Below the pieces are notes generated by a model. That model saw only the letters and a program-made list of their open reading frames with translations. It did no database searches and was not told the DNA's origin. From Desertivirga arenae (GTDB lineage: Bacteria; Bacteroidota; Bacteroidia; Sphingobacteriales; Sphingobacteriaceae): 64,000 nucleotides of DNA. Below are positions 591 to 37,701 of the stretch, in pieces. A program made the translations under genes and the position numbers. The stretch covers positions 1 to 64,000 of the forward strand of contig NZ_JAFEWE010000016.1 of the NCBI RefSeq assembly GCF_017355785.1, given 5' to 3'. The first letter of the stretch is position 1, and every line of letters starts with the position of its first letter.

Positions 591-3500
591 TTAACGGTAA
601 TGGTCAAAGTTGCAGAAGTGTTGCCCGAGCTATTGCCGGCTGTAACGGTATATGTTGTTAAAGACTTCGTAGCAGTAGGCGTACCTGTAATTTGCCCCGT
701 TGAGGTATTGAGGGTTAACCCAGCAGGTAGTGCGGGACTAATGCTATATGATGTTGCACTTCCTGTTAATGTTGGATTAAGGGCAGTAATGGCTGCACCA
801 ACAGTATATATGTTCGGCGAGGTATAGCTTAAACCCGATGGGGCAGTTGCTGAAACGGTTATTGTGTTTGAAGTAACCGAATTTAGACCTGAAGATGCAA
901 AGCTTAATGTTTGCACCCCTGATCCGGAAATGGCCAGATCATTAAAGGTAACGATACCATTAACCGCCGTCTTGGTTAATGTTCCACTAAGACTTCCAGT
1001 CCCAGAACCGATCGATACAGTTACCTGAGTTGTACTATTGTTGGTAGCCAGGTTTCCGTAAGCATCATATAAATACACAACAGGTTGTTGTGATAATTGA
1101 GCACCACTAAAAGCAGTAGATGATGGTTGCTGATTAATTACCATGCTGCTTACTACGGCAGGACTGATTACGAAAGAATTTGAAGTTCCGACCGTTAAAG
1201 GGTCGGTGGTACTTAGCGTAGTGAGTGTATAGGTTCCTGCTTTTGTGAGTGTAACGCTATGAGACGACAGTACTCCCGCAGTAAAAGAACTTGTTGGTCC
1301 AGCCCCTGAAGACATGTTGGATGAGGACGCAACCGTATTCTGACCCGTATAATTCGTGTAAGTTGCGTTGGCCGCATCCTGGGCAGTGATAAGGACTTTA
1401 AATGGAGTACCAGCTATTTGGGTCCCAATATTTCCTCCCGCAGCAGCCTCGACCTTAAAGTGGTCTACACCCGCGACCGTGACAATATTAGAGAAATTGC
1501 TTTCAATTCCATTAACGGTATTAGTGGCTTTAACCTGAGCGCCTTTGTAAATATCGCCGGTCGCGGTAGTGATGCTCCAGGTAGCAGCATTCGATGTATT
1601 TGTTAGTGGAGTTCCGTCAACGTAAAGTTTCACAAGCGTATTACCTGCAGTTCCACTTACTGAAGTTGCTCCAGCATAAATAGGAGAGGTAACAACTGGA
1701 GCAGTTGGGGCGCTTGCCTGCACAGTCACCGAATTAGATGCGGCACTTAAGGCCTTATTGGTAGCGTCCGCTTTTGCAGTTAAAACGTCTCCCGAAGCAA
1801 GAGTTAAACCTAGAACTGACCAATTGCCAAAGGCATTGACAGTAGTTGTTCCAATCGTAGTAGTTGTACCTCCGCTTGTCTTATATAAGTAAATTGTTGT
1901 TCCTGAAATTTCTACTGAAGTTCCCGTAACCGTTTTTCCTGATCCTGCAATGTAGGTATTAGTAATAACCGGAGCAGTTGAAGTTGCTGAGGTTCCTGAA
2001 ACTATAACAAGGTTGGACTCATTCGAAAGAACATCATTAGGTCCACTACCTTGCGCCCTTGCTGTTAGTCTGTCTCCTTCAAGTAAACCTGAGGCAGAAA
2101 AGGAAGTAGTGGCAGCATTGGTAAACGTTAAACTGCTTCTAGCTATTTCGATTCCGTTTTTATATAATATTAAAGTTGAATTCGAATAATTACTTTGAAC
2201 AGTGATAGTTGTAGAACCGGTATTTGCGAGGATAGAAGTAGTGTTAATCGTTGGAGCAGGTGTAAGTGAGGTTGAATTACTTGCTCCGCTGGCCGCCGAC
2301 ATACCACTTACACAGCCGTTGTATTCGGCGGTTGCAAAAAGCCGGGAGTCATTGAATGTATTTTGCGCTTGCCCTGTAACAAATGAAAAGGAGCCCGCAC
2401 CAGTGGAGGTGGCAGAGACATAAGTAGCTGTACCTGGGCTTAGTTCTGTGAAGGTGTTAGTTCCAGGTGTTTGTTGGTACACTCTTATCCTTACCGTGTT
2501 TGCCAAAATTGCAGACCCGTCCGGCATAGTCCAGGTGCCTGGCAAATTTTGAGAGCCATTAACTTTAGCACCTATAACGGGGGTCGGTGTATAACATAAT
2601 TGTGGAGCAGTTACCTCTACCTGATTTGAACTGACTGAAGTACTTTTGTTAGTAGCACTAGCTTTAGCGGTAATAAGATTACCAGCAGCAAGACCAGAAA
2701 CTCCAGACAAAGTCCATGCGTTACTTGTTACTGTCGTTGTTCCAATAGAAGACCCGTTTTTATATACAGTAATTATAGTGCCATCTGTTTCAACACTAGT
2801 TCCTTGAATAGCAATGCTGGCGGTATTTAAACTGCTTGTAATTACCGGAGCAATAGTAACGAGTTGCCCAAAACTTGCGCCCTGGGTTAAGTTGGAAAGA
2901 TCCGTTGGAGGAAAACTGCCCACAACTGCTGCATACGCAGCATTGGTATTACTACCATATTTTTGATCGTTGATGCCATTAATATCTGAAGCAGTTCCAC
3001 TAATTCCGCTTTGGGCGCTGGTAATGGTAGTGGCAGCAAGTCTTACACTTCCAGTGATCCCAAGATCTGCATAGGGAACAAAAAAATCATAGAAGTAATC
3101 TGCATCTCCGTCATTTGTACTTGCTGCTATAGAGCGTTGATGGTATTGATCAATAGTGTAGGTTTTAGTGTTAGAAATTGTTCCCGCTGATACGTTGTGA
3201 GTATATATTTTAACTCCAAAACCTGTTTCTAATACGATTTCTTTTTCAAACCCAGGGTTAGCACCCGTTAGCGAAAATAGATTATCAGTATCTATCAGAA
3301 GAGAATATCCTTTAGAGGCAGTCGAGTTTTTACCGATCCGAAAGCGGACGATAAAATAATCAACTCCACTAACCGTTTTTTTCAGCACAAAAACGGAATT
3401 AGAACCGTCTAAGCTAACTATTTCTGTATGACCTCCACTAGCACCTGTACTTAAATCTGCCGAAGGCTCTGCAATAACCAGTGGTATAGAAACCATTTGG

Positions 3501-7370: not shown

Positions 7371-7489
7371 TGATAAAAAAGGGAGTTGCAGAATCCACTC
7401 CCTTTTAAAACCTCACCCTTTATCTAACCTATGAAAATCTTTTTTTGCGATATGTCTGTGTGTACGTAGGTTTCCATAATAGGTTGCAT
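7371..7489 (-). ncRNA. Candidate small RNA, copy 1 (terminator plus UUUUCAUAGGUU segment)
   Basis: Read on the minus strand the element begins near ATGCAACCT (7489-7481), contains ATTTTCATAGGTTAGAT around 7439-7423, and ends in a perfect 10-bp hairpin (AAAAGGGAGT / ACTCCCTTTT, 7406-7377) running into six T (7380-7375). The same order of blocks recurs at 37599-37701. The 5' AACCTAT could pair with the later ATAGGTT. No promoter was recognised. The hairpin may also terminate the DinB gene on the plus strand. An alternative reading is a 12-codon plus-strand frame starting at 7431. Confidence 0.4.
7377..7406. terminator. Intrinsic terminator after the DinB gene
   Basis: Arms AAAAGGGAGT and ACTCCCTTTT (10 bp, perfect) with a 10-nt loop. 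There are four T on the plus side and six on the minus side, so it is stronger for minus-strand transcripts, including read-through of the candidate small RNA; it starts 20 bp after the DinB stop. Confidence 0.7.
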
Positions 7490-34062: not shown

Positions 34063-34073
34063 TAAAAGAACCT

Positions 34074-35696
34074 ATGAAAACGAAAATAGATATACGTAAC
34101 CTTTCAAGGGCTATTCTGCCTGTTTTAATCGCAGCCATTTCATTGTCCTCTTGTTCTAAAGATGAGGCAATGGATGACGAATCTGTCGAAACCGGGAACG
34201 AAGCTCCTGCAGATGGAACGCGTGATGAACTAACGAAAGATTCTATTTTTCTTTATGCTAAACAGGTGTATTTATGGAATGATGCTTTGCCTTCATACGA
34301 AGCCTTCAACCCAAGAAAATATAATCAATCCTCAGACCCCCTTGATAATTACTATTCGGAGCTCTTTGCTATTACCCAGTTTAAAGTAAATCCTGCTACA
34401 GGAAAACCTTATGAGTATGTTTCTGCCTCTGCGAATTATCCGAAATATTCTTACATAACTGACGAAGAATCAAATAATCCCCCTACTACTGCCACAGGGT
34501 CAGTTCCTGTAGTGAGCGAAGTTACATTGGAAGGAGTAGGAACAGACTTTGGTATTGCTTTGTCTGCAGTAGGTTCTCAAACCTCCTACCAAATTTATAT
34601 TCGATACGTTAGTCCGGGTTCTCCTGCAGCAAAAAACTCTCTTAACCGTGGCGATATACTTACTCAGATCAATGACCATAAACTAGGGGCCAATTTCGCC
34701 ACTGACCAGGATGTGGTTAACCGGGCCTTCGACCAGGCAACTTTACGATTGACCGGAAAGAAGAGTAGTGGTGAGGCCTTTACCAGATCTTTAACGAAGC
34801 AAACCTACAATAGTAGCCCAGTTTACAAGGATACTGTCTTTACTTCCGGGGGTAAGAAGATTGGTTATCTGGCGTTTGCTAGATTTGCTAACCCGTCTAA
34901 TGCTTTGGGCCCGTTAAATACCGTATTTAACAAGCTGACTGCAGTAGGTGTTCAAGATCTGGTGATCGATTTAAGGTACAATGGTGGTGGCTATGTTTCC
35001 ACTGCAGAGCATCTTGCCAACCTCATAGCACCTTCCTCTTTAAGCGGTCAGGTAATGTTTACAGAATATTACAATCAAACCATGCAAAAGGGTGAAGCGA
35101 CCATTTTAAAAAACCAACCCTTATTAGACGCTAATGGGAAGTCACAATTTCAGAACGGCCGGTTGATCACTTACAATGATATTGACTATTCGGTAGGAGA
35201 GAATACCTATAAGTTTCAAAAGGAAGGATCGTTAAACTCAGTTAAAAATGTGGTATTTATAGTTACCGGAAACACAGCTTCGGCCAGTGAACTGCTTATC
35301 AATGTGTTGCGGCCTTACCTAAATGTAAAGATCGTAGGATCCACCAGCTATGGTAAGCCTGTAGGTTTTTTTCCAATTAATATTGATAAATACGATGTTT
35401 ATTATTCAATGTTTGAAAGCAGGAATTCGAAGAGTGAAGGTGGCTATTATCAGGGATTTGTTCCAGATGCAGCTTCAGCTGATGATGTAACGCGTGATTT
35501 TGGAGATCCTCAAGAAGCTTCCCTTGCTGCTGCAGTACGATATCTTACTACCGGAACTCTTACAGCAAGTATTCAGGCTACCACGAAGGTAATGGGTAAA
35601 AACGTAACCTTGTCTTCATCCACAGTGAAGGAGGTAAGCAAAGAAGATTCATTTAAAGGAATGATTGAACTACCTTCACGACTGAAACTTAAATAA
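34074..35696 (+). CDS. S41-family peptidase, lipoprotein, second of two
   Basis: Start at ATG 34074 (MKTKIDIRNL), chosen over a TTG 24 bp earlier because it gives the lipoprotein signal with Cys in ISLSSCSKDE. The 540-residue product matches the upstream paralogue along its whole length: RDELTKDSIFLYAKQVYLW, PDZ-like YVSPGSPAAKNSLNRGDIL, DLVIDLRYNGGGYVSTAEHL, VTGNTASASELLIN and STSYGKPVGFFPI. The duplicate differs mostly in surface loops and in an N-terminal acidic stretch (DEAMDDESVETGNEAP). Sequence context at its start is AACCTATGAAAA, which is complementary to the candidate small RNA. Confidence 0.87.
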   Translation: MKTKIDIRNLSRAILPVLIAAISLSSCSKDEAMDDESVETGNEAPADGTRDELTKDSIFLYAKQVYLWNDALPSYEAFNPRKYNQSSDPLDNYYSELFAITQFKVNPATGKPYEYVSASANYPKYSYITDEESNNPPTTATGSVPVVSEVTLEGVGTDFGIALSAVGSQTSYQIYIRYVSPGSPAAKNSLNRGDILTQINDHKLGANFATDQDVVNRAFDQATLRLTGKKSSGEAFTRSLTKQTYNSSPVYKDTVFTSGGKKIGYLAFARFANPSNALGPLNTVFNKLTAVGVQDLVIDLRYNGGGYVSTAEHLANLIAPSSLSGQVMFTEYYNQTMQKGEATILKNQPLLDANGKSQFQNGRLITYNDIDYSVGENTYKFQKEGSLNSVKNVVFIVTGNTASASELLINVLRPYLNVKIVGSTSYGKPVGFFPINIDKYDVYYSMFESRNSKSEGGYYQGFVPDAASADDVTRDFGDPQEASLAAAVRYLTTGTLTASIQATTKVMGKNVTLSSSTVKEVSKEDSFKGMIELPSRLKLK

Positions 35697-37212: not shown

Positions 37213-37530
37213 ATGAAAAATTATAAAGACATATTAAATGATGCAGAATCGTTAATCAAGGACGTTTCAGGGCCTAGCAATGGGAAGATCATTGCTGCAG
37301 CAGCAATCGGCTTAGCAGCCGGAGCAGTTTTAGGTATCCTGTTAGCACCTGCAAGCGGTTCTGAAACACGTAGTAACTTAACTGATTCTCTTGCAGGAGC
37401 AGGTGGTTCTATAAAAGATAAAGCGAAACAAGGCTTCGATAAGATTTCTGATCTAAGTTCTCAGGCTGTAAATTCTGTTAAATCTAGAGTTCAGGGAACA
37501 GGCGTAGCTGATACTGCACCAGCAGTATAA
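37213..37530 (+). CDS. YtxH-domain protein
   Basis: The 105-residue product has one membrane segment, IIAAAAIGLAAGAVLGILLAPASG (starting about residue 26), followed by the YtxH signature SGSETRSNL and a long amphipathic helix (IKDKAKQGFDKISDLSSQAV). YtxH proteins of Bacteroidota and Firmicutes are small stress-related membrane proteins of unclear role, sometimes annotated as gas vesicle proteins by similarity. A terminator follows at 37559. Confidence 0.8.
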   Translation: MKNYKDILNDAESLIKDVSGPSNGKIIAAAAIGLAAGAVLGILLAPASGSETRSNLTDSLAGAGGSIKDKAKQGFDKISDLSSQAVNSVKSRVQGTGVADTAPAV

Positions 37531-37598: not shown

Positions 37599-37701
37599 AA
37601 AAAAGGGTTGAACTATTGTTCAACCCCACATCTACCTATGAAAAACATGCCCTTTTGGGAAGGACACGTTGTTTTACTATAAATATTGCTTAAGGTTACA
37701 T
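37599..37701 (-). ncRNA. Candidate small RNA, copy 2 (terminator plus UUUUCAUAGGU segment)
   Basis: On the minus strand the element begins near ATGTAACCT (37701-37693), contains TTTTTCATAGGTAGAT around 37645-37630, and ends in a perfect 9-bp hairpin GGGTTGAAC / GTTCAACCC (37626-37605) followed by six T (37604-37599). On the plus strand no T run follows, so the terminator works for minus-strand RNA although no minus-strand gene is nearby. Block order and spacing match the element at 7371-7489. No promoter was recognised. An alternative reading is a 14-codon plus-strand frame starting at 37638. Confidence 0.4.

Follow-up and report, generated by a model that had tools for sequence, protein, structure and literature searches.

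Two loci on the minus strand of a 64,000-nt stretch of the Desertivirga arenae genome (the window; the whole host genome measures 6.19 Mb) very probably encode members of an undescribed, multicopy family of trans-acting small RNAs (sRNAs) in Sphingobacteriaceae. The predicted RNA is ~70 nt long and is composed, in this order, of a 5′ hairpin, a single-stranded core (TTTTTCATAGGTAGATGTA) and an intrinsic terminator. The RNAs probably repress translation by pairing of the core over the start codons of target mRNAs, and for this explanation as a whole we estimate a probability of about 0.75. The original prediction had proposed an undescribed sRNA family on the minus strand from three blocks that recur in the same order at 7371-7489 and 37599-37701. 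At the level of sequence this proposal is supported, though not in all its details, by further copies, by their common layout and by covariation of paired bases in related genomes, and no Rfam family matched at its cut-off.

Copies in the window and in the host genome

A sequence check showed the three blocks at the expected places in both window copies. On the minus strand, the first copy contains ATGCAACCT at 7489-7481, TTTTCATAGGTTAGAT at 7437-7422 and a GGGAGTGGATTCTGCAACTCCC stem followed by six T at 7380-7375, in agreement with the intrinsic terminator that had been noted at 7375. The second copy contains ATGTAACCT at 37701-37693, TTTTTCATAGGTAGAT at 37645-37630 and a GGGTTGAAC...GTTCAACCC stem with six T at 37626-37599. 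The pattern TTTTCATAGGTN{0,2}AGAT has 12 matches in the host genome (the reversed pattern has 0), and the repeat is more than chance. Within the window, the 11-mer TTTTCATAGGT is not rare when one mismatch is tolerated (5 matches, with 2.4 expected), so support for the repeat comes from the whole genome and from the layout.

All 12 pattern matches were retrieved, aligned and inspected individually. In 11 of them, an uninterrupted core TTTTCATAGGTAGATG is followed by an intrinsic terminator, and 10 of these 11 loci have a clear 5′ hairpin just 5′ of the core, with a loop that is often such as CCCAA. Unlike these ten, the copy at C23:387229 (L015) has a weak 5′ hairpin. The twelfth locus is the copy at 7375 itself, in which one base is inserted in the core. 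A 13th host copy, with a changed or shortened core, was found with a covariance model at C11:58485-58552. Four sRNA copies are located inside 12 kb in a sensing cluster of the host (L202, C9:76500-96000), next to PAS/histidine-kinase-like and receiver-like genes (identified by eye), a BLUF protein (PF04940) and alpha/beta hydrolases that resemble RsbQ by eye.

RNA architecture and covariation

The second window copy is a canonical member of the family, with the following features:

37599..37672, minus strand: whole match to covariance model R1 (69 bits, E 1.9e-12 in the window)
37648..37666, minus strand: 5′ hairpin UGUCCUU-CCCAA-AAGGGCA (alignment and model match)
37627..37645, minus strand: single-stranded core, the putative seed, TTTTTCATAGGTAGATGTG, with a family consensus ending in ...TGTA (alignment)
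37599..37626, minus strand: terminator hairpin and T run (alignment and model match)
37695..37700, minus strand: predicted -35 element TGTAAC (motif comparison)
37675..37678, minus strand: predicted -10-like element AGTA, N16 spacing (motif comparison)

Model R1 was built from 14 sequences, and L014, L050 and L082, which have a different stem register, were removed from the model seed (A4). The alignment used for covariation contained 89 matches, which came from 86 of the 87 sources supplied (77 of the 119 contig loci and 10 host sources, with L015 unmatched). The other contig loci, namely L052, L110 and L123 (two gene starts and one unstructured sequence) and L128-L166 (39 of the 119), were left out. 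Covariation was computed on the 80 distinct rows of this alignment, which was fitted to the model and hence leans towards it: standard pairs occupy 96.1% of the cells, and both-sided (compensatory) changes are present at 15 of the 16 base pairs (6/6 in helix 1, the 5′ hairpin, and 9/10 in helix 2, the terminator). None of 500 shuffles reached the observed value on any of five covariation measures, and when the structures were slid along the alignment, the paired share dropped to 37.7-53.0%.

A gene for a YtxH-domain protein (PF12732) at 37213-37530 of the window is convergent with the canonical sRNA, and their terminators are arranged back to back.

Promoters

The motif TGYAAC-N16/17-MGTA, which we take to be a promoter of an extracytoplasmic function (ECF) sigma factor, is located 25-31 nt before the core in 8 of the 12 host copies. 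It has 10 matches in 827,002 nt of host sequence (both strands counted, the two window copies included), which gives an expectation of 0.0017 in the 12 upstream ranges versus the 8 found. The 13th host copy also carries an ECF-type motif, as judged by eye. Among the remaining host copies, one has TAnnTTTG (sigma-ABfr-type) and one has TGGCAT-N5-TTG (sigma-54-type). The sigma factor of each promoter type is a prediction from its motif. In other genomes, 118 core sites comprise 82 with a sigma-ABfr-type motif, 29 with a sigma-54-type motif, 2 with both, 2 with an ECF-type motif and 3 with none; L052, L110 and L123 were excluded from this tally, one site had too short an upstream sequence, and L128-L166 were classified by script alone.

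The more stringent motif TGTAAC-N{16,17}-CGTA has 39 matches in the host genome, compared with 12 in the reversed control. Downstream of the 30 inspected matches, response regulators and sensor kinases were recognized by eye among the genes, and some matches seem intragenic. At C7:113732-113757 of the host, an ECF-type motif lies 23 nt upstream of a receiver-like open reading frame (ORF; by eye) whose start reads ATCTACTACTATGAAA.

Distribution

The covariance-model search across Sphingobacteriaceae, which the original prediction had suggested, was positive (one match or more at E ≤ 0.001) in 110 of 121 genomes, and it is in members from this family that the compensatory changes described above are seen. 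The number of matches per positive genome ranges from 1 to 11, with the host highest, 1-7 in the other positive relatives and one or two in 96 of the 110. At the class level, 9 of 247 genomes have a match, eight of them Sphingobacteriaceae and one from another family (G607), in which the locus is sRNA-like, with promoter motif, hairpin, core and terminator.

An exact 16-mer was found in the host and in all 10 other Sphingobacteriaceae genomes of a 395-genome phylum sample (13 of 395 overall), and the two matches outside the family (L018 and L030) are not sRNA-like. A 19-mer occurs in at least 119 stretches of named genomes. The 80 stretches that were listed and inspected individually include Pedobacter, Mucilaginibacter, Sphingobacterium, Olivibacter, Arcticibacter, Parapedobacter, Nubsella and Daejeonella, names that point to Sphingobacteriaceae as the family sampled, and three of the stretches (L052, L110 and L123) are not sRNA-like. 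Within the genus of the host, one relative is Desertivirga xinjiangensis, as L334 and L054 agree at 2100 of 2100 bases, which makes the host itself a probable Desertivirga species. L110 is a match in a metagenome-assembled genome titled Paenibacillaceae and is either a chance match or a misassigned contig. Tandem arrays of three sRNA genes are present within 0.7 kb in Mucilaginibacter pedocola (L124) and, with 121-bp spacing, at G459:C73:241382-241692.

Viral contigs in IMG/VR yielded 35 matches to the 16-mer. L178 looks sRNA-like, and L167, L176 and L181 are gene starts by eye. On the minus strand of L178, the core (1926-1941) and then a terminator-like hairpin come right after the stop codon of a capsid-like gene (by eye; ORF 1951-3237), and this single phage copy is a possible mimic of the sRNA. 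By eye, L167, L176 and L181 may be viral-contig genes with a start complementary to the sRNA core, in which case the host RNA could target them; L167 resembles L260, a hit in a family genome with a target-like sequence. One sRNA query against phage records and one against plasmid records gave no match.

Candidate targets at start codons

Read on the opposite strand, the core gives ACATCTACCTATGAAAAA, a sequence with an ATG in it, and it is complementary to ATCTACCT-ATG. Three genomes of the genus together contain 38 exact matches to the 11-mer ATCTACCTATG (4 for the reversed control), and 21 of the 38 are in sRNAs. At 12 of the 17 non-sRNA sites, the ATG is that of an ORF of at least 45 codons (3/6 in the host; 8/9 in G421, two of which are copies of one gene; 1/2 in G400). 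The expected number of start-codon sites is 0.15 per 5000 genes, or ~0.45 for the three genomes if each has 5000 genes, an expectation calculated from the nucleotide frequencies that precede putative start codons in a sample that includes three of the sites. Complementary sites are enriched at translation starts, as is typical of trans-acting seed-pairing sRNAs, and an own promoter, an intrinsic terminator and a conserved unpaired seed are all present as sequence motifs.

The start-codon sites of the host belong to a NusG-domain protein (PF02357; C34:112322) and two glycosyltransferase-like proteins (PF00534; C39:135607 and 137385). These genes, together with a Glycos_transf_2 gene ~127 nt downstream of a further site, fall in two polysaccharide clusters that also encode proteins for polysaccharide export, proteins like chain-length regulators, flippases and numerous glycosyltransferases (partly by eye), and the Poly_export gene of the C34 cluster has the start ACCTATGAAAA. 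In G421, the candidate targets are mixed (a patatin, two short-chain dehydrogenases, a Branch-family enzyme, and proteins that have no Pfam match or were unscanned), and in G400 the candidate is an acetyltransferase. The window itself contains one weak candidate:

34070..34080, plus strand: ACCTATGAAAA at ATG 34074 of a Peptidase_S41/PDZ protein (11-nt match alone; protein named by Pfam)

The related sequence TCTACCTATGAAAAB has 48 matches across 201 family genomes, compared with 8 for the reversed control, and many of the inspected matches are sRNA variants or intragenic. Among them is a small protein of 45-53 residues (A5), which carries the target sequence on its start codon at L263, L264, L269, L272, L274 (the same as L035) and L275 and has no Pfam match in its host form. 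In A5 relatives the target sequence instead follows the stop codon and precedes the terminator (host C17:7108, with one mismatch; G548; G499), and sigma-54-type motifs were seen by eye upstream of three small-protein genes with such 3′ sites. A fasciclin gene (L052) likewise has the target sequence on its start codon, and a gene with a fasciclin-like start by eye (G099) has it before the terminator. The presence of the sequence at two positions in one gene family supports real RNA–mRNA contact, and the 3′ sites in target-like mRNAs may act as sponges. The host encodes three A5-like small proteins, at C17:6954-7091 (E 1.6e-17), C12:53508-53615 (E 6.6e-7) and C12:124375-124488 (E 0.02). The first of these genes has no Pfam match, a sequence complementary to the seed before its terminator and a sigma-54-like motif upstream.

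The divergent copy at 7375

The first window copy, around which the family was originally proposed, turned out to be a poor prototype: it is divergent and has no 5′ hairpin. Its match to model R1 (7375-7458) scores 17.8 bits with E 0.11 (the next match in the window scores 13.4 bits), and 5 of the 6 helix-1 pairs are unformed in the model alignment. The following features are predicted:

7375..7457, minus strand: small RNA, divergent member, with promoter, core and terminator in family order (start placed ~6 nt past the -10 element)
7422..7437, minus strand: core (putative seed) TTTTCATAGGTTAGAT, with one inserted base relative to the family (core pattern and alignment)
7375..7406, minus strand: intrinsic terminator (sequence and fold)
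7483..7488, minus strand: TGCAAC, the predicted -35 of an ECF-type promoter, within the AUGCAACCU block (motif comparison with host copies)
7463..7466, minus strand: -10 element CGTA of the same predicted promoter, N16 spacing; the core follows 25 nt downstream (27-31 nt downstream in the seven other copies with the motif)

The AUGCAACCU block had been taken for the 5′ part of the RNA, in which AACCUAU would pair with AUAGGUU and close the structure. Because TGCAAC (7488-7483) and CGTA (7466-7463) match the ECF-type promoter of 8 of the 12 host copies, the block is placed upstream of the predicted transcript and is probably a -35 element and not RNA. The closing pair was consequently dropped, and the covarying structure consists of the local 5′ hairpin and the terminator. 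Folding of 7375-7489 pairs part of ACCU with AGGU; this long-range pairing was rejected, as by comparison the AACC block is a promoter element.

The 7375 copy is probably expressed from its own ECF-type promoter, and we consider it rather likely that it is both expressed and working. It is less probable, at perhaps half those odds, that the copy is non-working, either decayed or composed of a chance core match next to a terminator shared by the convergent DinB-family gene and the neighboring minus-strand genes. The low model score and the unformed helix-1 pairs would fit such a reading, as would the start of the terminator ~18 nt past the DinB-family ORF (DinB by Pfam). Against it stand the near-complete core, the TGCAAC-N16-CGTA promoter at almost the family spacing and the terminator, all in the correct order, together with the background of the promoter motif (10 in 827,002 nt). 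The terminator at 7375..7406 may also serve the convergent plus-strand DinB-family gene, bidirectionally.

Comparison with known systems

Rfam was searched at the gathering cut-off and at E up to 10 (4227 models, with FopS among them unconfirmed), and no family reached its cut-off on any sRNA copy searched; one of the searches had a single match, a tRNA elsewhere in L124. The Bacteroides thetaiotaomicron plasmid p5482 was also free of Rfam matches. The best sub-threshold matches over the copies were suhB/mmgR and sbrA. The suhB/mmgR family (RF00519), which is alphaproteobacterial, resembles the RNAs described here in its short 5′ hairpin, single-stranded middle and terminator, but its scores (29.1 bits to L012 and 26.6 to L013) are below the gathering cut-off of 41. 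In enterobacteria, the sigma-E-dependent MicA and RybB provide an example of an alternative sigma factor that drives sRNAs silencing mRNAs for surface components near the start codon. Their sequences are unrelated, and the sigma factor of the Sphingobacteriaceae RNAs is suggested by the motif alone. The Rfam consensus of BTnc231 (RF04180) starts with ACGUUUUUUUCAUAGAGAUUUAGA and thus has UUUUUCAUAG in common with the core, but its model length is 154, its structure is different, and its two matches (27.2 and 20.2 bits, with a cut-off of 80.4) are located off the sRNAs.

In the accessible parts of the open-licence literature on sRNAs of Sphingobacteriaceae and Bacteroidetes, or on TGTAAC with ECF sigma factors, no report of this family was found. 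The base-pairing Bacteroidota sRNAs that these texts describe are from gut Bacteroides (PMC7366714, PMC11697453). GibS of Bacteroides thetaiotaomicron is similarly trans-acting, with a seed that pairs around the start codon and represses targets, but it has two seeds, R1 and R2, and both lie in a 5′ region that lacks structure (PMC7366714).

The closest known system is FopS of B. thetaiotaomicron, which comprises 14 paralogous sRNAs (12-15 copies per genome), with a seed in a single-stranded 5′ stretch and a terminator, and represses SusC-like mRNAs, with RbpB as an antagonist (PMC11697453). Both systems have a conserved single-stranded seed, an intrinsic terminator and sigma-ABfr promoters, and the features of FopS that may be paralleled here are repression of translation by pairing, one member derived from a 3′ untranslated region (UTR) and a reported phage copy (PMC11697453). 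The FopS consensus has no 5′ hairpin, whereas the Sphingobacteriaceae family has a covarying one (6/6 pairs; lacking in the 7375 copy). FopS is described from Bacteroidaceae, and the promoter motifs of the present family include ECF-type and sigma-54-type ones. The copy number is 13 in the host, with 1-7 matches in other positive relatives, versus the 12-15 given for FopS. The present family was not filed as FopS, because its 5′ hairpin covaries and FopS has none; the two are set apart by structure. We propose that the Sphingobacteriaceae RNAs function like FopS.

Proposed mechanism and alternative explanations

In the mechanism that we propose, signals acting through the housekeeping, sigma-54 or ECF sigma factor would increase the expression of at least one copy. 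Flanked by the 5′ hairpin and the terminator, which would protect the short RNA, the core would remain single-stranded. The fixed core UUUUUCAUAGGUAGAUGUA would then act as the seed and pair with ATCTACCT-ATG-AAAA over the target start codon, along up to 18 nt, and this pairing would block translation initiation, with exopolysaccharide and capsule genes as the host targets. Some target-like mRNAs, which have the same sequence before their own terminator, may be sponges. The sequences show the copies, their layout, covariation and distribution, the promoter motifs and the enrichment of the complement at start codons, whereas transcription, pairing, repression, the sponge role and the identity of the sigma factors are predictions.

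Several observations weigh against this explanation. Because the loci were collected by the core, its constancy among them is in part built in, unlike that of the other features. No covariance-model match was found in 11 of the 121 family genomes at E 0.001, where strict filters may lose weak ones, and the 7375 copy, among the least typical members, is itself below detection at this threshold. In 2 of the 12 host copies, all three promoter motifs are absent. Four of the 17 non-sRNA sites fall within open frames of other genes (two in the host and one in each relative), and one host site lies ~127 nt upstream of its gene, which is a Glycos_transf_2 gene. A permuted pattern has 3 matches in the same genomes, two of them preceding an open frame. 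When as many as 3 mismatches were allowed in the target search, the host genome had 129 matches and the reversed control 83, so that weaker sites are indistinguishable from noise, and the exact 11-mer was used for this reason. The second glycosyltransferase-like name in the host is below the Pfam cut-off, and since the targets of G421 are mixed, the exopolysaccharide theme is clear in one genome, the host, and is not general. Pairing over the AUG could also affect mRNA stability.

An improbable alternative to seed pairing is that the core serves chiefly to bind a protein (e.g. an RNA-binding one with an RbpB-like RRM), which the RNAs would titrate or present, with the start-codon match being secondary. 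The length of the core (~18 nt) exceeds the 6-10 nt given for seeds usual in Hfq-dependent sRNAs (PMC7366714), and FopS RNAs of Bacteroides are bound by RbpB, which favors single-stranded regions (PMC11697453). A protein site would, however, be expected in mRNAs in the same sense, yet it is the complement that is enriched, exactly on ATG, and the two functions are compatible with each other. A dispersed selfish or REP-like repeat, or a favored terminator cassette with no regulatory role, would account for the multiple copies and for the tandem ones in L124 and G459. We regard it as very unlikely, as the stems vary by compensation while the intervening segment stays, the copies carry promoters of three kinds, and 96 of the 110 positive genomes have one or two matches each. 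Least credible of all is a 12-codon peptide encoded on the plus strand from 7431 with ATCTAACCTATGAAAA as its start context, an option considered in the original prediction and rejected here. An ATG with AAAA following is indeed present, and host ORFs with ACCTATGAAAA starts exist, but the likeness of ACCTATGAAAA to a start context arises because the core is antisense to start codons. Moreover, the plus-strand frames at the 12 sRNA loci range from 8 to 34 codons and have nothing in common past the first codons given by the core, and it is the minus-strand RNA structure that covaries.

Returning to start-codon pairing by a family of sRNAs, a more speculative and rather doubtful extension is that the family forms a regulatory hub. 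Copies with the same seed would be wired to housekeeping, sigma-54 and ECF-type sigma factors, so that different signals converge on the silencing of capsule/exopolysaccharide and surface-protein mRNAs; small sigma-54-driven mRNAs with the target sequence on the start codon or ahead of the terminator would serve as sponges, and at least one phage would mimic the sRNA with a core placed in the 3′ UTR of the mRNA for its capsid.

In Pedobacter, Mucilaginibacter and Sphingobacterium, targets could be predicted by a direct and testable rule, given that the family is present in most sampled genomes and its fixed seed is complementary to the start codon itself. The combination of three promoter types for one seed with target sequences located before terminators would offer a route to the study of signal integration and sponge buffering by multicopy sRNAs.
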